A DNA stretch of 64,000 nucleotides from Gyrodactylus bullatarudis (lineage: Eukaryota; Platyhelminthes; Monogenea; Gyrodactylidea; Gyrodactylidae), in assembly GCA_012064415.1 (NCBI GenBank), contig SSNU01000110.1, positions 310,001-374,000 on the forward strand. Reading direction: 5' to 3'. The notes beneath the pieces were generated by a model, which worked only from the letters and a program-made list of their open reading frames with translations, did not search any database and had not been told where the DNA came from. This document shows, in pieces, positions 5,845 to 58,735 of this stretch; positions within the stretch are counted from its first letter, which is position 1, and every line of letters starts with the position of its first letter. The translations under genes were made by a program, and so were the position numbers.

Positions 5845-5987
5845 TGGAGTTATCTTGGATATGTCGTCATGTCCACAACATAATTTAGCGAAGTGGTTAA
5901 TTGATGTATTGAAACCAATACATACATATTATGCTAAATATGTTGTCAAAGATACATTCGCTTTTGTAGATAGAATTAAAGGCGAAA
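5845..5987 (+). pseudogene. Penelope-like RT fragment
   Basis: About 48 codons match the start of the RT core found in the longer Penelope-like copies ([20 protein letters not shown], then a YYAKYVVKDTF segment). It joins the piggyBac relic at its left and the 3'-truncated LINE at its right. Only the fragment remains. Confidence 0.75.
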
Positions 5988-7735
5988 TTTTTAATAATGA
6001 AAGCCGATCTTCTCAACCATAAGGGATCAAGTCCAGAGATAGAGATTAGTGAATTATAAGAATCAATATTAGGAAAACAGGAATGAAGAAATCTGTATTG
6101 GATCCTATCAATGGTAAGCGAATTCGAGTTATTGATATGAGGAAGGAGAGGGGAAAGGTAATCCAAATGAGGAAGAAAAAATGTTTTATAACCCGAGATT
6201 TTAAGACCAGTGGAAGAGGAGAATCTAATAATTACATAGATTAGGGAGTTAACCAGACCAATTTTAGACAAAGGAGCAATTTTTAATGAAGCATCCAATT
6301 CAAAACCTAGATCAATAGTAGTGTTGACGAACTCACCAGGAAGGTGAAGGTTAGAGAGAAAGGTATCAGGGAGACCATTTGGCAAAAGGAGTTTACACTA
6401 TTGATTTACAAGCCCATTTTAGAAAGAACATTTTTGAAGGAATCAAAATAATTATTAATTTTTATAATGTCGAGAGAGTTGTTCACATTATAGACAATTT
6501 TAATATCATCCGCGTATTTAAAAATCTTACCAATTTTGTCAGGAATTTGGATATCCAGCATGCATAAATTAAAAAGCAAAGGACCTAAAGAAGAACCTTG
6601 AGGAACGCCTGAGAAAATTTCACAATAAGAACTAGTAAAGGAATTGAATTTAACCGATTGTTTACGACGCGTAAGAAAAAGAATTATCATATTAATAAGA
6701 GAATTATCCAAACCTAAACAGATGAGTTTATTGACAATATAAGAGAATTTGAGGCGGTCAAAGGCTTTCGAAAGAACAATAAAATGAATAATCATGAATT
6801 TACTGGAAGATTTAAGAGGCAACGAGTAATTAAGAAAATCTAGTATATTAGAACTTGTACTTTTGGATCTAATAAAACCATGTTGAGTAGGATCAGGGAA
6901 GGGAAAGGGAAGTGCATCGGAAATTAAGGAGGTGAGAAATGTATCAATTATCGAAAGAAAGATATTTAAAGATGAGATCGGTCTTAAATCAGAGAAATTT
7001 GAATATTTTTTAGACTTGGGGATAGGAGTGATTGTAATGAGGAACCAATCATCAGGGATAGCGTTTGAAACGAAACAAAGGTTTATAAAATTCGCTAAGC
7101 TAATAAGAAAGCAAGGAGGGAGAGCCTTGATGAGGTTGAAGGAGTTAAAGTTGGAATCAATTCTAGTTTTAGTTTTGGCCGATTCCTTAAGGTCAATAAT
7201 AAGTGAAGGTGTTATAAAAGGCGGAGAGGAGGAACAAGGTGGTAGCTCTATATTTTCAGGCGAATTGAAAGAGGAGACAAAGTAATTGTTTACTTTCTCA
7301 CAGAATGAATTATCTTCAAGGTTAGTAAAGTTAACAATGGATGAGTGTCTATTAAAGTTCAAGAGTTGTTTGAATTTAGACCAACCTCTTCTAGGACAAA
7401 ATTTGAGATCTTTGGAAATAATTTTTTCGAAGGAATCGATGCAAACGAGATCAAGATCATCAAGGGAGTTAAGAGTTTTTCGGGAATTAATCGTAACTCT
7501 GGTAGAGTTAGATATTAGGAAATTGAAAATGAAAGAATTAAAATTATCATTGTAAAAAAGAAAGTCCTTATAACGGGAATACAGAAAGTTTAGTCTTTTG
7601 AAGTCCACCGTTCTTTTCACATTAGAGTAGAACATTGCGTATTGTGACAGACCATCAGAGAAAGAGTTAGGGATCAAGGAATACAGGCTAGTAATGAGAT
7701 CATCATCGTTGATATAGAATTTACTACCAAGAAGT
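5988..7735 (-). pseudogene. LINE ORF2: reverse transcriptase and C-terminal region
   Basis: RT motifs are in order: ITPIPKSKKYSNFSDLRPIS, QHGFIRSKSTSSN, LSKAFDRL, GVPQGSSLGPLLFNL and KYADDIKI. The residue two before LSKAFD is I-V where active elements have the metal-binding Asp (usually LDLSKAFD), so the first catalytic Asp appears lost; YADD is intact. The frame stops at 6406 and the C-terminal region continues in another frame (6385-5988) with LPHLDYLSP, IQYRFLHSC and GLDPLWLRRSAFIIKNF. It ends abruptly against Penelope-like sequence. Inactive. Confidence 0.85.
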
Positions 7736-8517
7736 TAAGTCTGAAGGAAAATGGTTATCCTGGTAAATTTGTTGACAAATTCATGAATGTATCTATGGAT
7801 AGAAATGAGGTTGTCGAAACAGATGAATTGGAGAAAGCAACTATTTTTATGAAGCTTAACTTCAAAGGTGATGGGTTCAGCAATGACATTAGAAGAAGGC
7901 TAAATGATCTCATCAATCAACATTATAATAACATACAATTGAAAATTGTATTTAAAACTCAGAGATTGTTTAGTTTAATTCATAAGGATTTACTGAAGCC
8001 AGAGGAGAAAACTCTATTAGTTTACAAATTCCAATGTGATTGTGGAGCCTCGTATATAGGTAGAACGATTAGGAAATTATCTACACGAGCGGAGGATCAT
8101 CTGAAGAAGGATACTGCGGTTACAAGGCATCTTAAACAAGAAGATCATACAGCTTCAATTTCAAATTTTTCCGTTTTATACAAAAACCCTAATGACGACA
8201 GCATAGATGTATGGGTGAAAGAGAAATTTCTTATTAACCTATATAAACCTAATCTATGTGTTCAGAAAAATTATTCCTATAATCTTCAACTCCCTTGGCC
8301 TATGTGAGCTTTTTCACTTTTCTCTCCACTGTTGCTATTTATTGGAGAGTTTTGGTGTTTTTTCAGCTTGCATTTTATTATTATTTTCTTTGACTTTACT
8401 ATTTCTTTCATGATTTGTAAAATATTATCTTGAATGAATTCTTAACTTATATCATTTTTGAAGAATTACCACTGATGATGCTTCAAGAAATGTACATTTG
8501 GTTTTAATATATCTTTT
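7736..8517 (+). mobile_element. 5'-truncated Penelope-like element (PLE) with GIY-YIG domain
   Basis: The open frame to 8307 encodes the PLE C-terminus: a linker ([31 protein letters not shown]) then a GIY-YIG endonuclease ([24 protein letters not shown]). It ends in QLPWPM and a stop at 8305-8307. A conserved 3' tail of about 200 bp follows and carries a hammerhead-like motif. In PLEs the RT and GIY-YIG domains are fused, and the latter cuts the target. Here the RT is missing. It sits in the LINE, with CCAA at both borders (about 7732 and 8518) as a possible short target duplication. Confidence 0.85.
8467..8503 (+). ncRNA. Hammerhead-ribozyme-like motif in PLE tail
   Basis: Core CTGATGA (8472-8478) and GAAA (8487-8490) enclose a short stem II (TG..CA). 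A minimal palindromic stem III follows (T-GTAC-A), and then TT. Stem I pairs ACCA before the core with TGGT after the cleavage position (8499-8502), 4 bp. PLEs are known to carry minimal hammerheads; cleavage activity is inferred, not shown. Confidence 0.5.
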
Positions 8518-14965: not shown

Positions 14966-15019
14966 GCAGTATGATTCTCCTGTGTAAGATATTTCAATAT
15001 AATCAATAACCCATATTTA

Positions 15020-15778
15020 CAGTAAAATATTTTATTGGAACATCATATTATTATTGGAACACGAGTAATTACCAATAACCCCCCCCCTAATCAAGTATTA
15101 TTTATCTCGACCAATCAGAATGCAGCAAGTGATTTCTATACATTTAGATAGGAAAATAAGTTAGTTTTTGTGAAAATGGGAAAATTCACTGTTTTCAGGG
15201 GAAAATGAGTGCCAAATCCATGTTCAGCACATTTTAAAAACCTTGACCATCATTAAAGAGGAAAAGACAACAAATTGGTGAGTATATACTAGAAAATGTA
15301 TTCGGTAAAATTATGTCAATTACAAAAAGTGAGATAGTTTTTGAAGGAAGAAAGGACAGGAGAAACTCTTTGAAACTTAGATTGGACACATATAGATATA
15401 GGATTTGAGCATAAAACCAAAAGCGAATCGCATAAGAATCAACACAGAAATACTCACTGATACTCCATTATTGAAAATTGATCAAAAGTTGAGCTGCATG
15501 GTTAAAGTCGACAATCAAACACATCAGTACTCATTCCTGAAAATCGTCCTTCTTTTGAGACTAAAACTAATCCTCATTTGTTGGCTCGAAGGTGGTAATT
15601 GATAAATTCGTTGGACTTATTATTTTTTCATAATATCGACATATTATATATATTCTAACAAAAATGAAAGATTATTTGAGGTTTGTTTTAAATTGCATTT
15701 TCTCAGTAAAGTTATTTTTCAAAAGAAGGAAATTTTTGGATTTAACCTTTTTATCAAATTATGATCATACATGTATCT
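15020..15778 (+). repeat. Left arm of giant palindrome
   Basis: About 759 bp, inverted relative to the right arm at nearly 99% by eye (example difference: gatatagg at about 15397 versus gatatacg on the right arm). A C-tract sits at 15080-15088. A 65-codon frame (15405-15602) occurs identically in the other arm only because the DNA is inverted; no domain was recognised, so it is not called a gene. Confidence 0.85.
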
Positions 15779-15837
15779 TAATTACTTATCACGAAATGAC
15801 TTATTTTAGTACTGTTTCGTGAAAAGTTGTATTGAAT

Positions 15838-16512
15838 TAGATACATGTATGATCATAATTTGATAAAAAGGTTAAATCCAAAAATTTCCTTCTTTTGAAA
15901 AATAACTTTACTGAGAAAATGCAATTTAAAACAAACCTCAAATAATCTTTCATTTTTGTTAGAATATATATAATATGTCGATATTATGAAAAAATAATAA
16001 GTCCAACGAATTTATCAATTACCACCTTCGAGCCAACAAATGAGGATTAGTTTTAGTCTCAAAAGAAGGACGATTTTCAGGAATGAGTACTGATGTGTTT
16101 GATTGTCGACTTTAACCATGCAGCTCAACTTTTGATCAATTTTCAATAATGGAGTATCAGTGAGTATTTCTGTGTTGATTCTTATGCGATTCGCTTTTGG
16201 TTTTATGCTCAAATCGTATATCTATATGTGTCCAATCTAAGTTTCAAAGAGTTTCTCCTGTCCTTTCTTCCTTCAAAAACTATCTCACTTTTTGTAATTG
16301 ACATAATTTTACCGAATACATTTTCTAGTATATACTCACCAATTTGTTGTCTTTTCCTCTTTAATGATGGTCAAGGTTTTTAAAATGTGCTGAACATGGA
16401 TTTTCCCCTGAAAACAGTGAATTTTCCCATTTTCACAAAAACTAACTTATTTTCCTATCTAAATGTATAGAAATCACTTGCTGCATTCTGATTGGTCGAG
16501 ATAAATAATATA
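15838..16512 (-). repeat. Right arm of giant palindrome (inner part)
   Basis: This is the inverse of 15100-15778. It is interrupted at 16512 by the Tc1-like element and resumes at 18043-18124 with the G-tract and terminal repeat. Near identity of the arms points to recent formation or to gene conversion between arms. Confidence 0.85.
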
Positions 16513-18042
16513 GTGGTCGACATAAAAAAGTATACACTTATAAAATATCTTCTAATTATTTAGAAAAAGTCATTATCAAGATGTAATATACATCATTCGA
16601 TAGGGCAGAAAATTCTACACATGAATCTGTTTACATATGTGTATTTACTCTCACCGTTATTCATTCAAACTAAATTTACTATCAATCATTAAAAATAACA
16701 ACGACAAATTAAAGTATACACTTTTATTTAGTGAAATTTCCCTCAGATAATATAACATTGAGGCATCTTTTTTGCATAGAGTTATACAGGCTATCTATGG
16801 TTTCTTTCGAGATTAAACTCCACTCCTCTAAAATTTTAAATATCAAATTCTGCCTATTTGAAAATGTTCTTCCATTTTCATAAACTTTTTGTGATAAAAT
16901 CCCCCAAAGATTTTCGATAGGATTTAAATCTGGGCTTCTTGCAGGCCATGGCAATATCTTTATCTCATTTTCCGAAAACCACTTTCTAGTTGATTCAGAA
17001 CGATGGCATGGAGCATTATCCTGTTGGAAAATCAGATCTTCAGCAATGATTTCCTGTTTAAACGCAAGCAAGTGGTCTTCAAGTAAGTTTTGGTAGGAAA
17101 TTGAATTGAGTTTTTCATCTATTATAACTAAGCTAGATATTCCTTTGCTTGTTATACATCCCCAAATCATGACACTGCCACCACCAAATCCTCGTTTGAT
17201 CTTTGTTGGTTTGGGTTGTTTTTTATCTAACCAGCAAGATGATAGACCATCAGGACCATCTAAGTTAAATTTTTTCTCGTCAGAAAAAATTATTTTAGTC
17301 CAATCCTGATTTTTGACAATTTTTTCGTAAGCCCATTGCTTTCTTGATTCTTTGTCATTTGAATTGAGATTCGGAACCATCTTAGGCTTACCCCAAAAGA
17401 GGTTCAGACTATTCTTCAATTTTCTCTCAATTGTCCTTATACTGACGTTTAAATTACATTCTGATTTAATCTGAGATGCACTCAAGTGATTTTTTATAGC
17501 CAAATCTTTGATTTTTTTCGACATAGAGTTTGGAATTAATGCCTTTGGACCTCTTTTCTTCAGGGGTTTTTTCTTCAGAAATATCTTACTTATGGTTCTA
17601 GTTGTCCTTCCCATAATATTTGCAATTTTCCTCATACTTAAGCCATCATCTCGCAGCGCTATTGCTCGATCTTTCTCTATATTTGTCAACTTCGAATAAT
17701 TCGGTATTTTGTTCTCCATTTAGGAATTTATGAAAAAAAATTTGGGAATAGAAATATTAATGCCAGATCTTGAATCTAAGTTTCTCGTGATTGAGTTTCA
17801 ATTGTTCAACTAATCAAAAAATGATCGAAATTAGTGTATACTTTAATTTGTCGTTGTTATTTTTAATGATTGATAGTAAATTTAGTTTGAATGAATAACG
17901 GTGAGAGTAAATACACATGTGTAAACAGATTCATGTGTAGAATTTTCTGCCCTATCGAATGATGTATATTACATCTTGATAATGCCTTTTTCTAAATAAT
18001 TAGAAGATATTTTATAAGTGTATACTTTTTTATGTCGACCAC
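16513..18042 (-). mobile_element. Tc1/mariner-like transposon, apparently intact
   Basis: The element is 1,530 bp, flanked by TA (16511-16512 and 18043-18044). Ends are GTGGTCGACATAAAAAAGTA and its inverse. Terminal inverted repeats are about 210 bp (16513-16722, 17833-18042) and almost identical. They contain inner repeats of the GTATAC-type end motif beside the gene, as expected for long-TIR elements with two transposase-binding sites per end. One full transposase gene lies inside. It inserted into the right arm of the palindrome. Confidence 0.92.
16724..17719 (-). CDS. Tc1-type transposase (DD34E)
   Basis: A 331-codon frame, full length for the family, begins at ATG 17719. The N-terminal half holds two helix-turn-helix (paired-like) domains: residues 9-60 (LTNIEKDRAIALRDDGLSMR, then IANIMGRTTRTI) and about 65-115, with KKRGPK between them as a GRPR-like basic hook. 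The catalytic triad is D in IIFSDEKKFNLDGPDG, D in FQQDNAPCH, and E in SPDLNPIENLWG, with 34 residues between the last two. Also present is the GFGGGSVMIWGCI block. No stop or frameshift was seen, so it may be active. It cuts and pastes the element at TA sites. Confidence 0.95.
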   Translation of the reverse strand: MENKIPNYSKLTNIEKDRAIALRDDGLSMRKIANIMGRTTRTISKIFLKKKPLKKRGPKALIPNSMSKKIKDLAIKNHLSASQIKSECNLNVSIRTIERKLKNSLNLFWGKPKMVPNLNSNDKESRKQWAYEKIVKNQDWTKIIFSDEKKFNLDGPDGLSSCWLDKKQPKPTKIKRGFGGGSVMIWGCITSKGISSLVIIDEKLNSISYQNLLEDHLLAFKQEIIAEDLIFQQDNAPCHRSESTRKWFSENEIKILPWPARSPDLNPIENLWGILSQKVYENGRTFSNRQNLIFKILEEWSLISKETIDSLYNSMQKRCLNVILSEGNFTK

Positions 18043-18249
18043 TATACTTAATTAGGGGGGGGGGGTTATTGGTAATTACTCGTGTTCCAATAATAATATG
18101 ATGTTCCAATAAAATATTTTACTGTAACAGGTGATTTTTTCATGTTTTCTCAAAAGAATATTTTTATAACAATATATTGTTATATATTTTGCCCATTTTT
18201 TCCAGTTTATAAATTTGAGAAAGTGCCTATTGTATTTCATTTATTCACA

Positions 18250-18830: not shown

Positions 18831-20344
18831 AACAAATAATTAAGTATCTAAAATACTTAAAAAATAAAATATATAGACATGTACATTGTACAATGCAATC
18901 AAATTTTTAAACCAGTTTAAATCAATCAAGCATGCCACTTTCTTCAAAATAATTTCGAAATTGTTACTCAAATATCTAATTTTGAGATTCCGATTTTAAG
19001 ACCTAAAAAATTGATCTTAAGACTTGATCCGGATAAAAAAAAAATAAATTCTGAAAGCAAATTCTTCGAGTGAAACTCTCTCTTAGAAAAAAATATGACT
19101 CTTAATATTTTTTGAGGCCCTATTCATCACTTAAATTTAAAAAAATTTTCGAACAAAAATAATAGAACGTAATTTAGGACAACTTAGGTATTATTATTAA
19201 TATTATTGCATAAATTGAAAATGAGAGACCATGAGAGAAATTTTTCTATTCACTCTACTACACAATAGAACTTGCAAAAATAATAAAATTTAATTTGTTA
19301 TTAATTACAGCTATGGATACAACATGATGGTATGATGTAATAATAATACTTTCTAATTAAAATAACAGTCTAGTGTAATTAATCACAATCATCATGAATT
19401 GACAGATTGGAAACAATTTTTCTTTCATTTATTAGAAATCAATTTTCCTAAACAGTATTCTAATTTAACCCTTCATGTCACAAACTATTTTTTTTTCATT
19501 ACACAAATGAAATAATTTTTAGCCTAACCAAAATAATTACGCTGATTCCAAATTCCATTTTGTAAGCCGACTCATCATTTCAAAGATAATAGAGGTTAAA
19601 ATTGGCATTTTTGGCTCTAAAACCAATTATCTTCTAAACTGTAAGAGATATCGATCAGCCGATTGTATATTTGAAATCTACGGCTATTGTTTTACGATAG
19701 AAAGTTATTTTTTTCCAAGACCTCAGCAAATAGGTTTTCAAGAAAAACGTTCTAAATATTTGACTACATTCTCAAAAGATCACCCTTCTTTATACATAAA
19801 TAAATTCCCTATTTAATGAGGAGTGAAAAAAGTATTTTAGGTATCTTTCAGCTCAAAGTATCACTTGAAAAAGTGCTGTGTTTCACTGGTGGGATAGAGA
19901 GACCACAACAAGCCAGAATACAACAACAGTCAAACATCTCCCTGATTGACCTACTTGATTCAAAATTATGATAATTTATAACATCAGAATAGAAATAGGG
20001 TGAGATGTTAACGTGTAAGATTATTCTAAAAATAAACCAAAAACTTTTTCTGTCAGAAATAGATTTTTGATTATTTTCTCTCCCAGTAGTCCAGAATCAG
20101 CGATAACATTTTTGAAATAAAGTATTGATAATGAATCTGACACAAATAGGATATTTTGTTATTATTATTTTTGTAACAATTTTGCAGCTAAATTGTTACA
20201 TTTCAGAACGTCAAACTGCTATTGTCATTTCATCAGAAACAAATTGCAACTATCCAACTACAAAGGGGTGTTTAAAAATGGTACAAATCTTTTTTCGGAA
20301 TCTAAAAATAGTTGGTCTTACTTTACAATTTTATTTAATTTACA
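18831..20344. other. No gene seen
   Basis: Very AT-rich spacer. 'ttaacccttcatgtcac' at 19467-19483 again looks like a piggyBac-type end (compare 62567-62583), without a partner. Confidence 0.4.
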
Positions 20345-21225
20345 AAATGTGTATTGATGAAAATGAAGGTTTTGAAATGCAAAGTAATGAAATAACTGAT
20401 CTCATTAGGATCTGTTGTACAAACGTTCCATTATCGTTTCAAAACAAAGTATTCATCCAGAAAGATGGGATAGCTATGAGATCACCTCTTAGTCCTCTCT
20501 TAGCTGATATCTTCCTAGGTTGGTTAGAATTAAATAAAATGTCCGATACTATCAATACTTTCACTGATTTATACATCAGATATGTTGATGACACTTTTAT
20601 TTTGATGAAACCTCCAAGATGAATTCGTTTCATCCGAATATAGTTTTTACTATGGAAAAGGAATCTAATGGTACTTTGAGTTTCTTAGATGTCAAATTGA
20701 CTAGAAGAGAAGATGGATCGATTCTGAGAAATATTTATAGGAAGAAGACTGACACCGGGAAGTATCTACGCTATGCCAGTTTCAGTCCTATTTCTCATAA
20801 AATAGGCTTAGTAATTGGTCAAACTATTAATAATAAGAGGATAAGAAAGATAGCAAGCCCTGAGGAATGGCCTAACGAAATAGAGAACGTGAAGTTAAGT
20901 TTGAAGGAAATTGGTTATCCCGGTAAATTTGTGGACAAATTCATCAATCAAACTATGGTGAGAGATGAGGTTGTCGTAACAGATGATTTGGAGAAAACAA
21001 CTATTTTTATGAAGCTCAACTTCAAAGGTGATGGGTTCAGTAATGACATTAGAAGAAGACTTAATAATCTCATCGATCAACATTATAATAATATACAATT
21101 AAAAATTGTATTTAAAACACAGAGACAGTTTATTTTGATTCATAAAGATTCACTCAGACCGGAAGAGAAAATTCTATTAATTTACAAATTCCAATGTGAC
21201 TGTGGAGCCTCATATATAGGAATCA
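20345..21225 (+). pseudogene. PLE fragment: RT core to start of GIY-YIG
   Basis: The first frame (to 20622) has [40 protein letters not shown] and YIRYVDDTFILMK, the RT motifs with catalytic YVDD. The Gly before SPLSP is Arg here (GSPLSP in other copies). A small deletion after MKP shifts the frame to 20619-21230 ([38 protein letters not shown]), ending in CDCGASYIG. The junction with a second PLE family is inside this motif at about 21226. Inactive. Confidence 0.8.
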
Positions 21226-21592
21226 ATTGATGGTTGTATTTAAAACCACAAGTCTATTCAAATTCCAGCTTAAAGATAAATTAGAACCATCTGAGCAATC
21301 AAATCTCATCTACATCTTTCAGGCTACATGTGGTGCCAAATACATAGGAAGAACCCAAAGACTGTTAGGATAAAAGAACACCTCAACAGAAAGAGTTCCT
21401 CAATAAAGAAGCACTTAGAGCAATGTGGTTGTCAAGCAAGTGAAGAGAATTTCAAAATTTTATTCAAATGTCCCAACGATAAACTTATAGACCTCAAAAT
21501 CCGAGAGAAGTTTCTAATCATGAATGAAGATCCTAACCTATGTATTCAGAAGAACCATTTACATAATTTGCAGTTACCTTGGCCCAATTGAT
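21226..21592 (+). pseudogene. Second PLE family: GIY-YIG C-terminus
   Basis: The translation is divergent from the main PLE family but equivalent: VVFKTTSLFKFQLKDKLEPS, then LIYIFQATCGAKYIGRTQRL (GIY-YIG), a frameshift near 21335-21350, RIKEHLNRKSSSIKKHLEQC, FKILFKCPNDKL and IREKFLIMNEDPNLCIQKNH, ending QLPWPN. It follows the other family without a gap. Confidence 0.75.
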
Positions 21593-22101: not shown

Positions 22102-23965
22102 ACACATAAATAATGATAAAAAATAAGAATTCATTGAAAATAATATTTTACAAATTTTGAAAGAACTATAGTAAAAGTTGAAAATTAGATTATAAAAAAA
22201 AACACCAAAACTCTCCAATAAATAGCAACAGTGGAGAGAAATGTGAAAAAGCTCACATAGGCCAGGGTAATTGAAGGTTATAAGAATAGTTTTTTTGAAC
22301 ACACAGATTTGGCTTAAAGTGATTGATGAAGAATTTCTCCTACCCACAAATCCGTGCTGTCATCCCCCGCATTTTTATACAAAATTGAGAAATTAGAAAT
22401 CTAAGCCTCATGATTTTCCTGTTTGATGTGTCTTGTCACCGATGTATCCTTCTTTAGATGATCATTTCACCTAATTGACAATTTCCTAATAGTACGTCCT
22501 ATATAAGAAGCTCCACAGTCACATTGGAATTTGTAAATTAAAAGAGTCTTTTCTTCAGGTTTTAGTATATCCTTATGAATCAAACTGAATAATCTTTTTG
22601 TTTTAAATACAATTTTCAATTGTATATTATCAAAATGTTGATCGATAAGATTAACCAGTCGTCTCCTTACATCATTACTGAAGCCATCACCTTTAAAATT
22701 AAGTTTCATCAAGATAGTTGTCTTTTCTCCTTCATCTCTGTCGACCATTTCATCTACATCATCAGACATATTGATGAATTTGTCAAAAAATCTGTTGGGA
22801 TAACCATTTTCATTTAAACATAATTTTGACTCTTCTATTTCTTTTGGCCATTCCTCTGGACTAGCAATTCTTCTTATCCTCTTTCCTAGACCAATTACTA
22901 AGCCAACCTTATGAGATAAAGGACTGAAACTGGCATAATGAAGATATTTTCCATTATCAGTCTTCTTCTTGTAGACATTTCTTAGTATTGACCCATCCTC
23001 CTTCCTAGTTAGTTTGACATCTAAGAAACTCAAACTCTCATTAGACTCTTTTTCCATAGTAAATTTAATATTAGGATGAAACGAATTCATCTTTAAGAAA
23101 AAATCGTCTACTGAAACATTTGGCTTCATCAAAATAAAAGTGTCATCAACATATCTGATGTATAAATCAGTGAAAGTATTGATAGTATCAGACATTTTAT
23201 TTAATTCTAACCAACCTAGGAAGATATCTGCTAAAAGAGGACTCAGAGGTGATCCCATAGCTATACCATCTTTTTGAATAAACACCTTGTTTTGAAAAGA
23301 CAAAGGAACATTAGTACAGCAAATCCTAACAAGATCTGCTATCTCATTACTCTGTAGTTCAAAACCATCATGTTCATCAATAAAAGATTTAATAACATCA
23401 AGGGTCTCCTCAATAGGAACATTAGGAAACAAAGAACTAACATCTAATGAAACCATTTCGTTTAAACCAATATTTAAATCCTTAACCTTATCGACAAAAG
23501 AAAAAGTATCTTTAACAACATATTTAGCATAATAAGAATGTATTGGTTTCAATACGTCGATTAACCACTTGGCTAAATTATGTTGTGGACATGACGACAT
23601 ATCCAAGATCGGCCGGATAGGAAAAACCTCAGGAATGATATTATCTACTATCTTATGTGTCTTAGGATGTAGATATAATCTAGACATCCTCGTATGTTTC
23701 CTAGCTATAAAACTTCTGGTTTTATCAGAAATTAAATTCCTATCAAACAAACCCTTTGCTATCTTATACATGGAACGTTCCATGGATTCCATTTCCTTAT
23801 AATAAGTTGATCTATCTTGCCCTGTGTTAATAAATTTACTTTCATCAGAAAGAAAATCTAAACCTGCTCTATAATAATCCTCCTTATACATTATAACTAT
23901 CCCTTTACCCTTATCAGTAAATTTGATAAAAGATCTATTTTGAATTTTGTTAAAAACTTCTGATA
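22070..23965 (-). mobile_element. PLE with long RT open frame, 5'-truncated
   Basis: One frame of 474 codons (23891-22467, continuing upstream to about 23960) covers most of the [10 protein letters not shown], a [20 protein letters not shown] segment, [49 protein letters not shown] and LSFLDVKL, then the linker and [18 protein letters not shown] (after KLSIR) and a TAG (EA*ISN) interrupt the GIY-YIG end. The same stops occur in the copy at 24421, and the TAG also at 24959. About 30 residues before DKGKG are missing relative to the 37-kb copy. The conserved tail ends at 22070. Confidence 0.85.
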
Positions 23966-35800: not shown

Positions 35801-38800
35801 ATTGTTATTATTCTAGATAATTATTCCCAAATTTAAAAAATTAATTTTCGCAAAAACCATAAACTTTATCCTATCAATTTTTTCGCAATTGGATTAAAAT
35901 TTAAATTCTGTGTCTCATGTGTAGTTAGTTCTTTTTTTTTAAAGTGATGCTTAATAAGAAAACTGCTCAATTTTTTGGGCTTTTTTTGTGAAAATTTTGT
36001 CATGTTTTTCCGATAGACATTCTGACAAGATTTTTCGAAATTTTAAATAGATCAAAATTTTATGAGCTTTCCAGATCTGTTATTGGCTTTTCCTTAGCTT
36101 ATCACAAACAGGTTCAAAATTTGAAATTTTTGAAGTGTGATTTTTTCTTCATTTTTTCCATTTTCAGTTTTAAATTTTAAATTTTAGATCAAGCTATCTT
36201 CAAAATCAAAAAAGTTCATATTTTCAATTTACTCAACTGATTATCTCAACGGTTGATGAAAAACCAAAAAGGTGAAATAAATAAGTAGATCAAGAAAATA
36301 TAAAAAACCGACAGTTCAAATTTTGAGACTTATTTTATTCTAAGGATCCCATGGCTTCGAAGATTACTAAAATCATTAAATAAATATTCATGTTGATTAA
36401 CTATTTTCTTTGAAATTTCGTGAGTCTTTGAATTAAGACATTGAGAAGTATCATCATAAAAACAATTTTATAATATAACAATAGAAACAAAAATTAACGG
36501 GATGAAAAATTTACTGAATTTAATTCCGGCCACTTTTCTCGTGATCATGTAGCTAAAATGCTTGTCAATGCAGTGTGAGCGAAATATGTCTCAAGTATCA
36601 ACTATTTCTTTTAAAAGCCTAGAATTTTTACGAAAAGCTCAAGGTGTACTGCCTCCCCAACAGAACAGACTGGTCATAAAATAGGACTAAAAGAATTTTT
36701 CAAATTGTGAATATACTCTAGAGAAACTTCCTGTCGTACATGTTTCAAATGTTTCTTTACTAGCTTATAAATTAGATACACGCTGAGTCAAGATATGTGA
36801 CTTCTCCGCTCCGAATCATAGATAATAAAGAGACCATAGCTCTTATTCCTGGTCACCGAAAGCCAGAAAAAAATTAAATCTCGCATCTAAAATTTATAAA
36901 CTCTTCTCTTTTCTTATGGGATTCAAGCTCTATATAATTATTATTATCGGAAATGTTTCAAATTTCCACTTTTTCAACTTTCAAATCCAAAATTTTTATC
37001 GATTTCAAAGATCTGAAGCAGTTAAATATTGATCAAAAATAGGAGTTTTGATCGAAAACCTCTAAGATCTAGTTTACTTACTGATAAGCATTTTGTAGCA
37101 TTAAAAGAACTTAAATCTAATGAAAACATTTTTCTCACCAAACCTGATAAAGGAAAGGGGATAGTTATAATGTATAAGGATGACTATTATAAAGCAGGTT
37201 TTGATTTTCTCTCGGATGAGAGTAAATTTGTTAATACTGGGAGAGATAGAACAACATATTATAAAGAAATGGAATCCATGGAACGATCCATGTATAAAAT
37301 AGCAAAGGGATTGTTTGATAGGAATATAATTTCTGATAAAACCAGAAATTCTATAGCGATGAAACATACAAGGATGTCAAGATTATACCTAGATCCTAAG
37401 ACACATAAGATTGTAGATAATGTAATCCCAGAAGTTTTCCCGATTCGGCCGATCTTGGATATGTCGTCATGTCCGCAACATAATTTAGCAATCTTAAAGC
37501 CTATACATAATTACTATACTTAATATGTTGTAAAAGATACGTTTTCGTTTGTTGATAGAATTAAGGATTTAAATATAGGTTCAAATGAAATGATTACATT
37601 AGATGTAAGTTCATTATTTCCTAGTATACCTATAGAGGAGACTCTTACTATCATCAAATCTTTCATAGATGAACACGATGGTTTTGAAATGCAAAGTAAT
37701 GAGATTGCGTCTCTTATAAGAATCTGTTGTACTAATGTTCCATTGTCATTTCAAAACAAAGTTTTCATTCAAAAAGATGGGATAGCTATGGGCTCACCTC
37801 TTAGTCCTCTCTTAGCTGATATCTTTTTAGGTTGGTTAGAGATGAAGAAGATGTCTGAAACTATCAATACTTTCACTGATGTTTACATCAGATATGTCGA
37901 AGACACTTTTATTCTGATGAAAACTAATGTATCAATAGATGATTTTTTCTTTAAGATGAACTCATTTCATCCGAATATTAAATTCACTATGGAAAGAGAA
38001 TCTGATGGTATTTTGAGTTTTCTAGATGTAAAACTAACCAGAAAAGAAGATGGATCAATTTTAAGAAATATTTATAAGAAGAAGACTGATAACGGGATGT
38101 ATCTTCATTATGCTAGTTTCAGTCCTAAATCTCATAAAATAGGCTTAGTAATTGGTCTAGGGAAGAGGATAAGAAGAATCGAGAGTTCTGAGGAATGGAC
38201 AAATGAAATAGAGAATTCGAAGTCATGTTTGATGGAAAATGGTTATCCATCCAAATTTGTTGACAAATTCATCAATCAACCCATGGTTATAGATGAGGAA
38301 GTTGAAACAGAAGAGGTGGATAAAATTACTATTTACATGAAGCTTAACTTCAAAGGGGATGGTTTCAGTAATGATATAAGAAGAAGACTTAATAATCTCA
38401 TCGATCAACATTACAATAATATACAATTGAAAATTGTATTTAAAACACAGAGATTGTTCAGTTTGATTCATAAGGATTTACTCAAGCCTGAAGAGAAAAC
38501 TCTATTAGTTTACAAATTCCAATGTGATTGTGGAGCCTCGTATATAGGTAGAACGATTAGGAAATTATCTACAAGATCGAATGATCATTTACATAAGGAT
38601 ACCGACATCTTAAACAAGAAAACCACTATGCTTCAATTTCAAATTTTTCCGTTTTATATAAAAACCCTGGAGATGACAGCATAGATGTGTGGGTAAAGGA
38701 GAAATTCTTTATCAATCAACACAAACCTAATCTATGTGTTCAGAAAAACTATTCATATAATCTTCAACTACCTTGGCCGATGTGAGCTTTTTCACTTTTC

Positions 38801-47800: not shown

Positions 47801-49640
47801 AAATTTTTTCGAATTATGTTTATTCATGGTTTTTGCTAGTATCAGGTTTTCTCAAATTTTAGAAATTCTCTCTCCTGATTGGTTCATGCAGTGAATCTTG
47901 TTTCAACCAATGAGATGGCAGAATTTTTCTTCATCATCTGCATTGAAGATTAATTTTAACTTAAAAATTCATCGAGTCCAATCTAAATTTAATTAAATAG
48001 TAGAGATGTAACCTTTTTTTTAATCAAAGTTTTCCGAGAAATATCCACATACAATTTTGATAAAAATGATGTGTGAGATCTAAATTAACTGAAAATTCGT
48101 TCGCAATCCCATGCAAACTTGAATATTATCACGGACAAGCATTTTGATACTTGATCTTATATGAAATAATGTTAAGAACTCATAGTATTATCATTTGAGT
48201 TGGTTTTTAAAATAGGTTGAAAAATTTTTTAAATCTCTATTAAATAGCTTTTGCTATCTACAGATACGATAGTTGAGCGTATTTAGTTAGCGAATCGCCC
48301 AGAAAGTTGTTCGGGAAAAAAATATTTTGTATTTGTACCATAATAATTATATAAAAGTAGAGAGATTATTTATCGACAAAAATTTTGAACTAAAACGTTG
48401 AAAAATGTGGAAATTTTGGGGCATTCTCAAAATTACAAAAATAAAGTTTTTCGGGAATTTACTTTATTCAACAGCTTATTTCAAAACAATAAATTCTTTC
48501 GTGACTATAAAGATATATCTGGGAAGAAAAATGAGGTTTTCTTTTGGAATAGTGAATTATCATCTTCATGTCAACTTCGTTATCTTTTGATCAAAACTAG
48601 ATGATAGCCTCTTTGCACTGCAAAAATCAAAGCAAGTTTTTACTGTTTAGTCTAATTAGAAGGACCGTGTTTTCCCTTTTCCTAAAAATTAACGTTTTTT
48701 TTAAAAAAAGAGTTTTGCACTGCAAAGAGGTATCTTTTCTGATATATTGCATTTGGTGTATTTATAAATTATTCTCACTTTTGAATTTCTAAGTCAGGAT
48801 TCAACCTTGTGAAATAAAAAGTTTAAAAACTCAATTTACACCATTACTAATGAGTAGTATTCGTCAATATAGTAGGGTGAAATTGGAATAAAAGCTCACT
48901 TTTTTGCTTTTTTCATGTCAGCCTCGTCATAAATATATGTTCTCAACTCGTAGTCGATTCCACAGGGCTTGCCCTCCTCAGTTAGACCAGACTGAAGCGT
49001 GATTGATGCAGGTGACTCTGGAGGCAAAATAAAATAAAAAGGAAAAGCCTTCTTTCCAACTTTTTTTGTAATCTTTTCCTGGAGTATTGTCAATGGACGA
49101 TAGTTTATAGTTTGAATTTCATTTGGATCTTCAATAGATTCTTGATTGTTTGCGAAGGAAAAGATACTTTGCTTAGGATCTTTATTACATGTAGCTGAAT
49201 TGAAACAAATTGGGATTCCGTTTACATATTTTGTGGGATCTTGGGGATCCTGTATAGGCGGATAGACTTGTACTGTACTAAAGAATAAATATTTCCGAAA
49301 GGTGAGACCGAGAACATCCAAGGCTTCTCTACCGTAGCGAAAAGATGCTAGGACATGGCAAAAAACCTTTTGATCCTTGAACTCATCAGGATCCAAAATA
49401 ATTAATCCTTCTAAAAATTTTTAATAATAGTTTATATTTTAAAAATAAATAATATATATAGCAAATAGCTTACCAACAGGATCTGCTTTTTTCTCGAAAC
49501 CAATAAAGTATCTTTTACTGAGATATGTGGTAATCTAGAAATAAAATTAATACTCGACTGACTTTTCCATTTGCACTACTCTTCTTAAAAACTCGAAATC
49601 CGAATTTACGATTAGGATCTTGCTCTGTTTCAGAAGTCAT
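29515..49640 (-). CDS. Arrestin (beta/visual arrestin family), complete 8-exon gene
   Basis: Eight exons joined in phase give 478 codons (477 aa): 49640-49563, 49534-49474, 49410-48900, 43726-43588, 41510-41426, 39579-39507, 34411-34262 and 29851-29515. All introns begin GT and end AG. Arrestins bind phosphorylated GPCRs. The N-domain phosphate-sensor lysines (FRVFKKSS), the [17 protein letters not shown] block, the polar-core Arg (VRLVIRK) and Asps ([16 protein letters not shown]) are present, as is the C-domain ([10 protein letters not shown]). About 50 extra residues sit between VQVYPP and RPLTILQEK in the N-domain. The acidic tail (HDFMNK...HEFHEE) shows no obvious clathrin box or AP2 motif. 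Visual versus beta type was not resolved. Transposons fill the introns but break no exon. Confidence 0.93.
32085..32252 (-). repeat. Dispersed repeat, copy 2
   Basis: Reverse-complement match to 80-275; see that entry. Confidence 0.7.
32690..32870 (+). repeat. hAT-like repeat fragment, copy 1
   Basis: About 85% match by eye to 41045-41240, with shared 'atttatctgacaagg.cttag', 'caattaattagtgg' and 'aaaatagcaaaattatttt'. It ends AAAATAGCATTTTGACCGCCC, the inverse of the start of the other copy, so this looks like a right terminus. Confidence 0.6.
32908..33133. repeat. Short inverted pair
   Basis: 'ccagttttggtgtatgagaa' at 32911-32930 and its inverse near 33111-33130, about 180 bp apart. Could be the ends of a small non-autonomous element. 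Confidence 0.45.
34262..34411 (-). CDS. Arrestin exon 7
   Basis: 150 nt; [20 protein letters not shown], then [14 protein letters not shown], one of the most conserved arrestin segments, holding both polar-core Asp residues. Acceptor TTAAAACAG; donor GTAAGT. Confidence 0.93.
35186..35651. repeat. Foldback repeat with arms of about 160 bp
   Basis: The left arm (35186-35343) and right arm (35485-35651) are inverse, roughly 88% by eye. Both end 'cctaRttgacatga' and contain 'aattaggccgtttttcgaa' at the inner edge. The unique centre is about 140 bp. Related copies: 36946-37033 with 38977-39062 (reverse), 39170-39471 (centre plus right arm), 48375-48590 (diverged). Confidence 0.75.
36747..36860 (+). 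repeat. Dispersed repeat shared with 18698-18830
   Basis: Same block as described for 18698-18830; here it lies in an arrestin intron and has no ORF next to it. Confidence 0.6.
37034..38785 (+). pseudogene. PLE RT / GIY-YIG polyprotein, most complete copy
   Basis: A single frame from 37029 to 38684 is broken only by TAA at 37521-37523. Motifs: [67 protein letters not shown] and YVEDTF (the catalytic site, Asp to Glu at 37899-37901; other copies have YVDD). [18 protein letters not shown] and the linker follow, then [18 protein letters not shown] (GIY-YIG). A deletion near 38605 shifts the frame before [10 protein letters not shown] and QLPWPM. PLE proteins prime reverse transcription at nicked targets. 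This copy should be dead. Confidence 0.88.
37034..38976 (+). mobile_element. PLE with 10-bp target duplication
   Basis: AAATATTGAT occurs at 37024-37033 and again at 38977-38986, exactly bracketing the element. The host sequence on both sides is one reversed copy of the foldback repeat, so the borders are certain. The PLE is 5'-truncated near the start of its ORF and runs through the conserved tail to 'tcaattttaat'. The 3' hammerhead segment is deleted (about 38940). Confidence 0.88.
39170..39471 (+). repeat. Foldback repeat, half copy
   Basis: The centre ('taattttgatcctga', 'aaagttgaaaaagtggaaat') plus the right arm, ending 'catgtcaattaggttta', of the 35186-35651 family. It ends only 36 bp before the donor of arrestin exon 6. 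Confidence 0.7.
39507..39579 (-). CDS. Arrestin exon 6
   Basis: 73 nt; [20 protein letters not shown] aligns with arrestin QFADICLFSTAQYKCxVA. Acceptor TTCCTATAG; donor GTGAGT. Confidence 0.88.
40375..40665 (+). mobile_element. PLE 3' fragment
   Basis: Degenerate match to the PLE end: 'gatcgtcttaagaaggat', 'ggtgactaggcatctta', 'gtgaaggagaaattcttta' and the tail 'attggagagctctggtg'. Frames are broken. Confidence 0.65.
40667..41245 (+). repeat. hAT-like non-autonomous element, copy 2
   Basis: Begins GGGCGGCTAAAAATAGCATT at about 40679. The right end of copy 1 (AATAGCATTTTGACCGCCC) is its inverse, so the TIR is roughly GGGCGG..AAAATAGCATTTT. The flanks share 'aattataatta' (about 40668-40678 and 41230-41240), an 8-11 bp duplication; 8 bp would fit hAT. 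The right terminus of this copy is shortened. Confidence 0.5.
41426..41510 (-). CDS. Arrestin exon 5
   Basis: 85 nt; [20 protein letters not shown] then TVKKLKLS matches the C-domain strand (YYHGExIxVNVxxxNNSNKTVKK). Acceptor CTATTTTAG; donor GTAAGT. Confidence 0.92.
41565..41627 (-). CDS. Possible arrestin cassette exon
   Basis: 63 nt (21 codons, phase 0 at both ends) with acceptor GATTCTTAG and donor GTAATT, lying between exons 4 and 5 with a 54-nt intron before exon 5. The peptide ([18 protein letters not shown]) is open, but it would lengthen the LDK-YFHGE loop and is not recognised from other arrestins. Optional exon or decoy. Confidence 0.35.
41985..42085 (+). repeat. LTR-like fragment
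   Basis: Matches 12905-12985 ('atgcttagtatgtgatta', 'taataaactttaaatagtcc', 'aaggacag'). There is no gag next to it; likely a solo LTR remnant. Confidence 0.5.
42598..42796. mobile_element. MITE, short form of the giant palindrome
   Basis: 199 bp between TA dinucleotides (42596-42597, 42797-42798). Ends are CAGTAAAAATATTTCTATTG and the inverse. About 48-bp TIRs correspond to those of 15020-18124 (CAGTAAAATATTTTATTGGA). The middle 'ctatctaaatgtatagaaat' plus 'cacttgctgcattctgat' is shared with 15128-15107 in inverse. Confidence 0.85.
43588..43726 (-). CDS. Arrestin exon 4
   Basis: 139 nt; [13 protein letters not shown], then [20 protein letters not shown] matches the hinge and start of the arrestin C-domain. 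Acceptor TTTAACAG; donor GTAAGT. Confidence 0.92.
44165..44200 (+). repeat. Relic of hammerhead-like sequence
   Basis: 'agtttaatagtctgatcag' then AGCCAGT and GAATC parallels 28556-28591 ('ggtgtaatagtctgacgag' then ATCCGGT, GAAAT). Core positions are mutated. Confidence 0.35.
45300..45480 (-). mobile_element. Decayed PLE 3' fragment
   Basis: Loose match to the inverse PLE tail: 'aaatagtaaaagttg', 'caaaactctc', 'gagagaaagctt', 'ctgaagattatatgagta'. Confidence 0.5.
47250..47515 (-). mobile_element. PLE 3' end fragment
   Basis: The minus strand carries the GIY-YIG end and the full tail. The tail finishes CTGATGA (47269-47275), GAAA (47262-47265), then TGTATAT and TTGG; five bases are missing from stem II compared with other copies. 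Confidence 0.7.
48375..48590 (+). repeat. Diverged foldback-family copy
   Basis: 'atcgacaaaaattttgaact', 'cgttgaaaaatgtggaaatt' and 'catcttcatgtcaacttcg' follow the order of the centre and right arm of 35186-35651 and 39170-39471. Confidence 0.5.
48900..49410 (-). CDS. Arrestin exon 3 (most of the N-domain)
   Basis: 511 nt with the arrestin core [17 protein letters not shown], the unusual insertion (Asn/Asp/Pro-rich, with three Cys), and [19 protein letters not shown] plus [10 protein letters not shown]. Donor GTGAGC at 48899 is followed by an intron of 5.2 kb. Confidence 0.93.
49474..49534 (-). CDS. Arrestin exon 2
   Basis: 61 nt encoding [20 protein letters not shown], matching the arrestin LTVYLGKRDF...DPVDG strand. 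Acceptor TTTCTAG; donor GTAAGC; phase 1 exit into exon 3 (E-G-L-I-I-L-D-P-D). Confidence 0.88.
49563..49640 (-). CDS. Arrestin exon 1
   Basis: ATG at 49640; 26 codons ending [12 protein letters not shown]. The donor GTCAGT follows, and the intron (49535-49562) is only 28 nt. Without removing it the frame is lost, so it must be spliced. Confidence 0.85.
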
Positions 49641-50943: not shown

Positions 50944-52552
50944 TCATTTTCTGCTCCATAACTTGAATGTGCAATCATGAGAACACGTTGCCAAGTAATC
51001 TCCGCCTTTTGGACTTATATCAACATAAGATATTCGATTAGAATGTCCTTCTAATGTCTTTAGGCAAGTCCATAAAGGATGCCCCCAGATTTTGCACGTC
51101 TTGTCGAATGACGAAGTCACAATGTAGCCATAATTCTTAGGTTCAAATTTGGCTGAAGAGACAACTGAATTGTGACTGGGGATTATGTAGATGGGTTGTT
51201 GTTGCCTTAAATCATATATGCGGACTGTATTATCAATTGAACAGGTCAAGGCATGAACTCCGTTATCTGCAATATCGACACCAATACAATCTTCCAAGTG
51301 CCCTTCAAAAAACATGATACAACGACCTGTCCTCAGATCCCACATTCTTGCATAACTGTCCATGGAGCTAGTTAGAGCCAAAGAGCCATCCGGATGGAAT
51401 TTGATGTCGTAGAGAGGCTTTGTGTGACCTTCTTGGTGAAGGATTTCATCGCATTGCTAAAAAAATGATGAAAATTAAAAAAAAATACTTTTACTTCAAG
51501 ATCCAACAGACGCCAAGATTTATCGTGGCATGTTGTCCCGAGAAATCTGCCACTTGGGTGGAATGCAACCCTAGTGACGCGATGTGGCCTATGTCCCTCA
51601 ATGTCAGCCAGAGGTTCTTCACTATCCAAGCTCCACAACTTTACACTCCCATCGTAGCTGCATGATGCCAGATTAATGGAGCAACGATCTTGATCGATGG
51701 TTGCCCTTGGATGCCATGCTATGCATGAGGCATTTGTTTCATGACCGCGAAGGCTACTAATAGGGTTCATTGAAGGAATTTCCCAGATGCGACAAAGACC
51801 ACTCCAGGATGCTGTGGCCAAAGCTTCACCGTTTGGAGAGAAAGAACAAAAGACAATTGGACGGTTATCGCCAATCTGACTTCCATGTAAATTCATGCCT
51901 GGTAAAATTAATTTTTACATCAAAGAATTTGAATAAAAAATTAGATTTTGGTTTACTTTTTTGATTTTTATGATGCTCGTGCATTTTGGCTTTCCTCTGG
52001 GCCTCTGAATTATTGGAAAAGTAGACTCTGGCTTCTTCAAGGCGTTTCTTTGTCCTTTGTAGGGAGTATTCTGCAATCCAAAGTCTTGCAATTCTCAAAC
52101 TCTCAGGACCCTCGTGGTACCAGACAGTGTTTTCATTCTGGGAATTTTCTCCATGAACAGCTGTTGAAGATCCTTCTATATTAATTATTAGGAAAATGAT
52201 TTAATTCACAATGACTATGACAGAAAAAAACACATTTGAGAATGAACAACGAATTCAAAATAAGTCATTTACCTGATAAATTGGGTCGCTGGGGATTCAG
52301 ATTTCTTGTGACGCACAGCATTTGCAATCGACTTCTTCGCATGGCTGGATCTTCCCCAAAGAGAATTATGGGCTCACCTAACTGTCTGAGATAGGCTTTC
52401 ACCTCGGAGTCTTCTGTGGAAACATGCATTGATCTAGCTTTTTTGCGTAATTCAAGAATCTGAAGGGCCTCTTCTTCCGCTGTAATGTGCTCTGTGATTT
52501 CCATTCTCTCGCCAGTCCCTTGACGAATGTTTGCACTAAGAACCTCTGTCAT
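50944..52552 (-). CDS. PRPF4: U4/U6 snRNP protein PRPF4 (Prp4)
   Basis: Exons 52552-52273, 52175-51957, 51898-51495 and 51456-50944; introns 97, 58 and 38 nt; 471 aa from the first ATG. The N-terminal SFM (splicing factor motif) region has [20 protein letters not shown] and [14 protein letters not shown] linker follows with [20 protein letters not shown]. Then come seven WD40 repeats, with typical [68 protein letters not shown] and a final [13 protein letters not shown]4 scaffolds U4/U6 snRNA with PRPF3 and PPIH in the tri-snRNP. About 50-60 N-terminal residues of the human protein are not seen. TTGCCTTTAG directly precedes the ATG, so an upstream exon or spliced leader joins there. Confidence 0.93.
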
Positions 52553-52694: not shown

Positions 52695-53564
52695 TCAGGG
52701 ATTATTCTTTTTCCTGAAGATCACATAGAGGGAATCAATCAAAAGACAAGAACAGACAAAGACAAAAAATAATCCGAGATTGAATATTCCTCTAGCGATT
52801 CGAATACGATCATCTTTAGGCAGTTCTGATATTACATCAACACGAGATTTCATTTTTGTAACTAGACGTGGAGCATCTCCGCAAATATAATCATTCAATT
52901 GATGAATTTTATGCCAGGTAATTTCAGAGTTGACAAAACTTTGGCCATTCTTAACAAAAGGGCAATATCTAGAGAAGGTACTTTTGGAGAAAATATTAGA
53001 GGGTGCACTGATTCTTAGACAAATGTCAACATTTGTTTCGTTACAATTGTTATTGGGACAATCCAAATGGTATTTCGGGGGAACATCAAGGGTAAGGAAG
53101 ATGGGATCATTGGCAAAATCATTTTGAAGACCAAGGTTACGTCCATAGAGTACTGTGCTCATGTTGTAATGAAGGGAAGAATTGAATTTTTCAATAGGGA
53201 AGATTTTTGCATCTAAACGTAGATCATACAAAGTATATGGTCGACCTGTTTGTTTTGGAAGGCTGAACAGAGAATCCAAATGACGTTCATTGACCTTTTT
53301 TTCGTTTGAAAGGCAAAATTCTATCTGAGATAGATACTTTTCAAATTTATCCCAATTGAGATCAGAACTAAAGTCCTCCAGAACAATGTCAAAATAAGCA
53401 ACTTTGTAGGAAAGATAGAAAAACGAGAGAGCTGCAAAAAAAGCTGAGGCGAAGAAAACAACAATTGGAGGATTAAATTGAGTTAACAGCATTTTACAAA
53501 CATTGAATATGTTGTTGCAAAGTCTAAATTTTGCATCATTTAAAACAATTTCAATTCTCTTCAT
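52695..53564 (-). CDS. TMEM248-like membrane protein
   Basis: An intronless frame of 289 codons. A cytosolic N-terminus leads into transmembrane helix 1 (about residues 30-55, FNPPIVVFFASAFFAALSFF). A long lumenal part with Cys pairs (CLSN, CPNNNCNET, CLRI, CPF, CGD) and Asn-x-Ser/Thr sites follows, including DPIFLTLDVPP and STVLYGRNLGL. Helix 2 is at residues 260-280, with a basic tail RKKNNP. The layout, NPP(I/L)VVF start and DDRxxI... before the last helix match TMEM248/TMEM219-type proteins. The molecular role of the family is poorly known. The C-terminus is shorter than in human TMEM248. TTTTTTCCAAGCAG ends 9 nt before the ATG. Confidence 0.72.
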   Translation of the reverse strand: MKRIEIVLNDAKFRLCNNIFNVCKMLLTQFNPPIVVFFASAFFAALSFFYLSYKVAYFDIVLEDFSSDLNWDKFEKYLSQIEFCLSNEKKVNERHLDSLFSLPKQTGRPYTLYDLRLDAKIFPIEKFNSSLHYNMSTVLYGRNLGLQNDFANDPIFLTLDVPPKYHLDCPNNNCNETNVDICLRISAPSNIFSKSTFSRYCPFVKNGQSFVNSEITWHKIHQLNDYICGDAPRLVTKMKSRVDVISELPKDDRIRIARGIFNLGLFFVFVCSCLLIDSLYVIFRKKNNP

Positions 53565-56837: not shown

Positions 56838-58735
56838 AGAAAACTCCATGGACACGTTATTCTCTGTGGTGATTTTAATAAACCTAAGTACACTCCCAAT
56901 ATGATTGACTATGCCTCGCCCACCAGAGAATCCCCAGCCTCATTCCTGGATCTACTGTTTACAAATCTTCCAAGACTTCGCTGCTGCTCGTCTATGCCTT
57001 TGCCAACCTCAGACCATCTCCCAGTATTTCTCAACCGAGTGCCAGTCCAATAACTATCAGACTGAATCTACCCACTTGATAACGTCTTTTTCGCATTTCC
57101 CGCAACTCTGCCTCTCAATGGAACATCATATCTTTGACTCTGGATTTAATACTGACCTTTTCCACTTCCTTATCCTTAGGTCTGCCAGAATGTCAAAAAA
57201 ATCCATTAATGCTACTCCATCAGTATCTCAAAACCTATTCGAAAGCTCCATCAGAGACGATCTTAAAACTCATCCTGCAAAAGCCTGGAGCAAACTCAAA
57301 TACCTAACAAATAAATCCCAGAAAAACTCTCTTCCCACTTCGACCTCAGCTGAATCACTCAATGCCAGACTCCATCCTAAATAAAATTGCTACTTTCCTA
57401 TCCGCTGCCCTTTCAAACAACTTTATCCCCGACGAATGGATGAGAACAAAAATCACTCCCATCCCTAAGAAATTCAAACCTGAGGCAGATTCTGACTTCA
57501 GATCCATCTCTAATCTATGCATATTCCTAGGTCTAGTTGATGGCATATGCAATCATCTCATCCGCCCACTTATTGACATAAAAAGCTTTGATCCTTCTCA
57601 ACATGGTTTCCTAAAAGGACGCAGTACCTCCACCAATCTGTTATTCTTCTTCAACAAAGTCGATGACCTTAACTATAAACGTATCCCCTGCTTAGTCATC
57701 TTCTTAGACATCTCCAAAGCCTTCGATATACTGCCTTTCAAAACAATCCAAAATGCATTGTTCAATTGCCACGTCAATCCCTTTGTCATAAACTGGATTA
57801 CTAAATTCCTATCAACAAGGTCACAGGAGGTCCATTTTGACGGACAGATTTCATCCCCAACCTCTATTAACTCGGGAGTCCCACAAGGATCGATTATTGG
57901 TCCTCTCGTATTTAACCTAGTTTTCTCCACAATCAAGCCATCCTCTTCCGGCATCTACTATTATAAATACGCAGATGACCTTAAGATACTAATACCCAAC
58001 TACTCCAATGACAAAGTTCGTAGAGAACTAGACCATATAAATAATTCCCTTGATGAAATCGGACTTAAAATCAACCAACTTAAGACTAAAATAATGGTCC
58101 TTAACCCAATCTCGACAATAATTGACATTGGTCCTGAATTTGCAAACCTTATTGTCCATAAAATCAAAGATCTTGGCCTATTCTACGATCACAAGATCTC
58201 GATAAAACCTCACATAAATGAGCTTATTAAAACTCTCAGATACTCAACGTATCTTATCACGAAATTCATCACCTGCCCCCAGCTTAAACTCTTGGTCTAT
58301 AAGAGTTTCGTTATCTCAAAATTTGACTACGGTCCAGCCCTTATAATTGGAATTACGAATGAGTCAACCAAGAAGATCGAACAAATCCAATTCAAATTCC
58401 TCAGGTCCTGTTACGGACCTGTCAGCTATAAAGCAGTCCATGACCTTTCTTCCCATTATCCTATCTAGCTTAGAAGAATTGCTGCTTCAACAATTCTCTA
58501 CAACAACTATAAAAAGAAGGAAAGTACCCCTGCATACAATACCCGTAACAAGCGACCTTTCTCAATTCTACTCAGGAACATTTTAACTTTTAAAACCAGG
58601 TTCCAAATTGTGTTAAGGAATATTCCATCTTCCAACATCAATTCCTCATGTGATTTCCTTTCCAAAATGATCCCCGAAAACCATAACCCATTTTCAAACT
58701 TTTCCTTATGAACTCAGATCACTATGTATATTTTA
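56838..58735 (+). mobile_element. LINE-B, 5'-truncated, directly downstream of LINE-A
   Basis: Starts inside the endonuclease (HGHVILCGDFNKP) and runs to the end of ORF2. It belongs to the same family as LINE-A but differs throughout, so it is a separate insertion in the same orientation. A C-tract (56771-56783) separates the two. Confidence 0.8.
56850..58706 (+). pseudogene. LINE-B ORF2, frameshifted
   Basis: Endonuclease end: GDFNKP, SFLDLLFTNL, TSDHLPVFL. A shift follows, then DDLKTHPAKAWSKLKYLTNK (to about 57350), another shift, and the RT from 57362: ITPIPKKFKPEADSDFRSIS, IFLDISKAFDIL, GVPQGSIIGPLVFNL, YKYADDLKI. The frame ends at TAG 58466-58468, where the conserved W of PLWLRR should be. 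The end module continues past it (LRRIAASTILYNN...) to about 58706. Inactive. Confidence 0.85.

Follow-up and report, generated by a model that had tools for sequence, protein, structure and literature searches.

A near-perfect palindromic transposon copy in the Gyrodactylus bullatarudis genome and its probable Tc1/mariner-superfamily origin

A long, near-perfect palindrome in the genome of the monogenean Gyrodactylus bullatarudis is very probably a Tc1/mariner-superfamily transposon copy that has lost its center by internal deletion and is non-autonomous. The complete form would carry a transposase gene between terminal inverted repeats (TIRs) of about 0.8 kb. The palindromic element occupies positions 15020–18124 of the window, by which we mean the whole 64,000-nt stretch of DNA analyzed (contig SSNU01000110.1, positions 310,001 to 374,000); coordinates below are those of the window unless they belong to another locus. 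Sequence comparison across the family indicates how such a copy could have arisen, namely by loss of the transposon center together with copying of one arm onto the other.

Structure of the palindromic element and its surroundings

TA lies immediately outside each end of the element (Table 1). At the left junction, ...CCCATATT-TA gives way to CAGTAAAATA at position 15020; at the right junction, TATTTTACTG ends at 18124 and is followed by TA-ACAGG. With the nested Tc1-like insert set aside, the element measures 1,569 bp and consists of a 759-nt arm, a 60-nt loop, and a 750-nt arm. Only 2 of 748 aligned arm positions are mismatched (substitutions at 15092 and 15401), and the arms further differ in length by one 11-nt indel (15203–15213) and by 2 nt in a C-run. 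A reading made from the sequence alone had described a TA-flanked hairpin at these coordinates, with near-identical arms of about 755 bp and a 60-bp loop, and our measurements bear out that description, the ends falling exactly where it had put them.

A repeat search recovered inverted pairs that are 99–100% complementary: those of 71, 111, and 565 nt build the arms, as distinct from a fourth pair of 214 nt that represents the TIR of the nested element itself. The outermost pair passes the TA by one base per side (15017 and 18127). Because 1,651 inverted 20-mers were observed in the 4.2-kb stretch and none in 20 single-base shuffles of it, the arm palindrome is not a product of chance.

Table 1. 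Coordinates of the palindromic element and of the transposon nested within it
Feature	Position in the window	Strand	Remarks
TA target-site duplication, left	15018..15019	.	TA before CAG at 38/41 ends scored
Left arm (long TIR), 759 nt	15020..15778	+	Starts CAGTAAAATATTTTATTGGAACA
Loop, 60 nt	15779..15838	.	
Right arm, inner portion up to the nested insertion	15839..16510	-	
TA duplication of the nested element	left 16509..16510; right 18045..18046	.	
Nested Tc1-like transposon, 1,534 bp	16511..18044	-	TIRs ~0.2 kb; TA on both sides
Open 331-aa transposase of the nested element	16724..17719	-	DDE_3; Sleeping Beauty catalytic domain E 1.5e-33
Right arm, terminal portion	18047..18124	-	Ends ...TATTTTACTG
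TA target-site duplication, right	18125..18126	.	

The nested Tc1 copy had likewise been read correctly. This insert has TA on both sides and an open Tc1-like transposase on the minus strand, the match of which to HTH_38 falls below the cut-off. Its own TA duplication and its absence from the left arm show that it entered the right arm later. In a comparison of ends only, its paired ends were also found, with 99% identity, at C436:128867–130404, C261:21789–23326, and C137:160995–162532, each time spaced by 1,538 bp with TA counted. These three further places suggest that the nested transposon has been recently active.

We take the open reading frames (ORFs) at 20125–21230, 22467–23891, 37029–38684, and 7783–8307 to be Penelope-type reverse transcriptase-like, with a GIY-YIG-like end, and those at 5897–7677, 54838–56676, and 57362–58468 are presumably non-LTR-like reverse transcriptases. 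Strong GC skew (−0.42 to −0.45) marks the region from 54 to 58 kb. Host-gene-like pieces at 52695–53564, 48896–49396, and 50944–51896 resemble a TMEM219 domain, an arrestin N domain, and WD40 repeats, respectively; the TMEM219-like ORF protein had no homologue at E ≤ 0.001 in a large database. The window holds no tRNAs and no Rfam families at gathering score. Exact TTAGGC ×4 and TTAGG ×5 arrays were not found, and a search for SL1 RNA gave no match, nor did it give any in control genomes.

The transposon family and its transposase

Searches covered the 77.3-Mb genome (471 contigs). A 781-nt probe spanning arm and loop returned at least 86 matches, which correspond to at least 39 loci, that of the window included, and at least 38 elsewhere; these locus counts are lower bounds, as 40 of 283 candidates were scored. 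Long matches of the probe show 84–96% identity to arms elsewhere. For comparison, we used copies from 40 loci (38 from the arm-probe search and two others) and then seven more. At 14 of the 40 loci, one arm starts at the terminus (position 29 or less) and extends to position 757–759; two such full arms were present at none, and the remaining 26 hold shorter pieces. The full family arm is placed at about 0.8 kb by loci L020 and L025, in which the inverted part reaches inward to family position 824–825, beyond that of the window copy. The center of L025 (1720–2000) contains a reverse-transcriptase-like fragment that visually resembles the ORF at 57362–58468 of the window, and on that likeness it appears to be a foreign piece between the arms.

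At locus L015, two arms, the second of them shortened, surround a minus-strand transposase with one frameshift. Its two frames, joined with an X, match DDE_3 (E 3.6e-28), and the catalytic residues D143, D224, and E259 align with those of relatives. D224 and E259 are invariant in an alignment of nine sequences and are separated by 34 residues, a spacing that we take to be that of the D34E class. Of 30 proteins from a search of a large database, the best 22 share 30–34% identity and DDE_3; one is from the mite Brevipalpus obovatus. The claim in the sequence-only reading that the element has no transposase is thus right for the palindromic copy and wrong for its family. That reading also did not recognize the element as any described kind, and it allowed that copies with a transposase between the arms would prove it a known family; L015 is such a copy, with a Tc1/mariner-superfamily enzyme in that position.

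A second, more broken transposase lies next to a single arm at L022. Altogether, 11 contigs match the family transposase at 77% identity or more, and in 10 of them (C163, C53, C64, C328, C468, C230, C428, C194, C130, and C270) the match is inside or next to a family arm. The fragment on C149 (L074) had no arm alongside within the 3.2 kb examined. No intact family transposase was found in genome searches with two transposase pieces, for which all 76 and 103 candidates were scored; at high identity, the same searches gave broken or partial copies only. A transposase acting in trans could cut the palindromic copy and paste it into TA sites, since both ends are kept, although no intact autonomous copy of the family was found.

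The termini behave as expected for insertion at TA. Of 41 copies (window included), 28 had scorable ends, and these provided 41 ends, 38 of them with TA directly outside CAG. The three exceptions are the right end of L012, the right end of L037 (probably mis-scored), and the left end of L042. An empty site for L012 is available at L055, which aligns uninterrupted to the joined flanks (94% over 143 positions) and has a single TA; the right-hand TA of L012 is now TG, and we read the pair as an insertion with TA duplication. L042 was considered as a second empty-site case and rejected, its left end having no TA and its junction not being a simple TA duplication. Across L009–L048 and the window copy, the family terminus takes two forms, a short one of 18–20 nt to the GGAACACGAG motif and a longer one of 36–38 nt with an extra ATTGGAACA unit; one copy may hold two alike or one of each.

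Thirteen copies, including that of the window, have both ends scored. In the window copy, 100% of bases pair in inverted orientation within the copy, counting the loop and excluding the nested insert, with the arms alone accounting for 96%. The corresponding values for the other 12 are 13–64% (inserts left in), so near-perfect symmetry characterizes the window copy and not the family. Among the copies compared, there was no second palindromic copy of the same form that would show movement of the window copy since it became palindromic.

Origin of the near-identical arms

In family coordinates, the right arm of the window copy matches to position 809 and the left arm to position 764. The other copies identify the last 45 nt of the loop as the inner end of the right arm, and the first 15 nt match none of them. 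These unequal arm limits, with junction nucleotides that belong to neither side, could reflect a central deletion in an element that had two full arms. Such a deletion would have removed the whole center and a small part of one arm, leaving the arrangement of arm, loop, and arm.

In the window copy, 14 bases are common to both arms and absent from the 40 other copies (counted over columns covered by at least 10 of the 40), and only two differences separate one arm from the other. The count remained 14 when six more copies were added and L069, a partial relative, was set apart. Arm-to-arm divergence amounts to 2 of 676 compared columns (0.3%), against 32 of 687 (4.7%) for the nearest full-arm copy. 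Comparison with the other copies assigns both one-arm substitutions to the left arm, as changes there, and the 11-nt deletion to the right arm. Independent mutation of the two arms would not account for the 14 distinctive bases being present on both sides in a single lineage. The changes common to both arms instead suggest that one arm templated the other, by gene conversion or by break repair inside the inverted repeat, either just before the central deletion or soon after it. Recent copying of the window arms onto each other within their lineage would be the simplest account of these comparisons.

Against this account, some partial copies are closer to the window copy than the 4.7% of the nearest full-arm copy. 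Between L069 and the left arm, 11 of 468 columns differ, and 12 of 497 do so between L069 and the right arm, which makes L069 the nearest partial copy at about 2.4%. It covers nine of the distinctive bases, has five of them, and does not have the other four. Some distinctive changes thus predate the split from L069, and four are younger or were lost in L069. The right arm of L027 differs from the window copy by 1.5–2.5% over 204 compared columns. In a tree made without L069, the two arms of the window copy are sisters with support of 0.994; of the nine copies that it includes, only four (L011, L021, L026, and the window copy) have their two arms as sisters.

The arms might also be alike simply because the insertion is very young, the arms of its source having always been alike and no copying between arms having occurred. 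We regard this as rather unlikely. The small number of arm-to-arm substitutions is in keeping with it, as is the existence of a subfamily relative, L069 (on C222), that matches the inner arm and loop at 98% identity across 281 bp and has five of the nine distinctive bases it covers. However, a young insertion leaves the same question to be answered for the source, whose lineage must still have gained the 14 bases, four of them absent from L069, in both arms.

Recent arm-to-arm copying thus remains our preferred account for the window copy; as a general rule of the family, such copying is less clear in the other copies, and several results speak against it. In a comparison of 15 copies, several of which offer few columns, copy-private changes numbered 26 in both arms versus 18 in one arm, and the window copy contributes 14 of the 26. 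In five of the 15 (L011, L012, L013, L021, and L028), the left arm has a closer match in another copy than in its own partner arm, with a margin below 0.05 points in L012 and L013. Fourteen shared bases against two differences nevertheless represent a countable instance of arm exchange, and counts of this kind could be used to gauge how frequently long TIRs are homogenized.

Hairpin potential, assembly, and comparison with known systems

The predicted RNA fold of the element has an energy of −1266 kcal/mol and 766 pairs, and formation of a cruciform or of double-stranded RNA (dsRNA) is possible in principle. A silencing role is possible, though unlikely, and nothing observed points to a host function. 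One broader scenario holds that the arms of this transposon family repeatedly overwrite each other by break repair inside the element and that the palindromic by-products, if transcribed, give long dsRNA against the whole family. We consider it very improbable; if true, the palindromic copy would be a natural hairpin silencer of the entire family, and maize Mu killer follows a comparable logic. The specific proposal that this locus is a source of long hairpin RNA silencing its own transposon family is very unlikely as well. It draws on arms of about 750 nt that are predicted to pair almost fully, on their 84–96% identity to arms elsewhere in long matches, and on the failure to find an intact family transposase. 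Set against these points, the nested Tc1 now interrupts the hairpin, and the arms carry no transposase sequence.

Near-identical inverted arms are also a classic assembly artefact, and the palindrome could in theory be an inverted chimera of a single arm. This explanation is highly unlikely, as the symmetry breaks off where the transposon ends, one base past the TA, and the flanks beyond are different. Only one arm contains the nested element, which has a TA duplication of its own, the arms are set apart by an 11-nt indel and two substitutions, and elsewhere in the genome L015 and L011 also have two long inverted arms. In assembly and annotation work, this locus is best treated as a transposon copy, and neither as an artefact nor as a regulatory hairpin, unless new data indicate otherwise.

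In architecture, the element recalls Tc4, a fold-back transposon of C. elegans that measures about 1.6 kb and is mostly inverted repeat with a short loop; the 1991 Tc4 paper has "unusual fold-back structure" in its title. The window element is built in the same way, with 1,509 of its 1,569 nt in the two arms. Membership in the Tc4 type has next to no probability and is ruled out by target site and catalytic triad, as PMC11071193 describes for Tc4 a duplicated TNA within CTNAG and a DDD transposase, whereas here TA is duplicated and the family enzyme is DDE, with E259 as its third residue. Tc4, like Tc4v, remains an architectural analogue.

Galileo of Drosophila offers a parallel in life history. 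According to PMC3573991, Galileo has two-TIR copies produced by deletion, the TIRs of one copy are 98–100% identical, and a repair-based extension of TIRs has been proposed. Long TIRs and a similar history are thus shared with the window element, whereas superfamily (P in the case of Galileo), family size, and TIR length differ. The family transposase is DDE_3 and not P-type, which sets the element outside Galileo and the P superfamily. Miniature inverted-repeat transposable elements (MITEs) are comparable in being non-autonomous, in consisting of TIRs only, and in their TA target. With a usual MITE limit of 600 bp given in the same source (PMC3573991), the element at 1,569 bp is not a MITE, nor was a set of near-identical copies found (4.7% to the nearest full-arm copy, 2.4% to the partial copy L069).

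A further family in the same genome, represented by L066 (C251:545411 region), shares CAGT...ACTG ends and differs in sequence, in its shorter TIRs, and in the presence of a transposase. The L066 element (444–2265) has 325-bp TIRs that are 100% identical and built of short TTAGTGGACA-like repeats, with TA on the right side only. Its open 334-aa transposase is distantly related, 29% identical to the family transposase over 241 aa, and is hence the enzyme of another family, not the intact enzyme of this one. Long TIRs therefore occur in this genome in one or more further families whose enzyme is related.

Likeness to the Tc1/mariner (IS630-Tc1-mariner) superfamily extends to the TA duplication, the inverted termini starting with CAG, and, in the relative L015, a DDE_3 transposase with D34E spacing between the same TIRs. 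We take D34E, along with D34D, D37D, and others, to be catalytic spacings typical of this superfamily. The window copy departs from its usual members in having no transposase of its own, and the family TIRs of about 0.8 kb are far longer than is usual in the superfamily. None of the literature matches listed gives a published account of the element, which is weak evidence of absence for a search made without species name or repeat library. Our verdict is that the element is known in kind, as a fold-back, non-autonomous Tc1/mariner derivative, and new as a member. A striking palindrome of this sort can therefore be an ordinary by-product of a long-TIR transposon.
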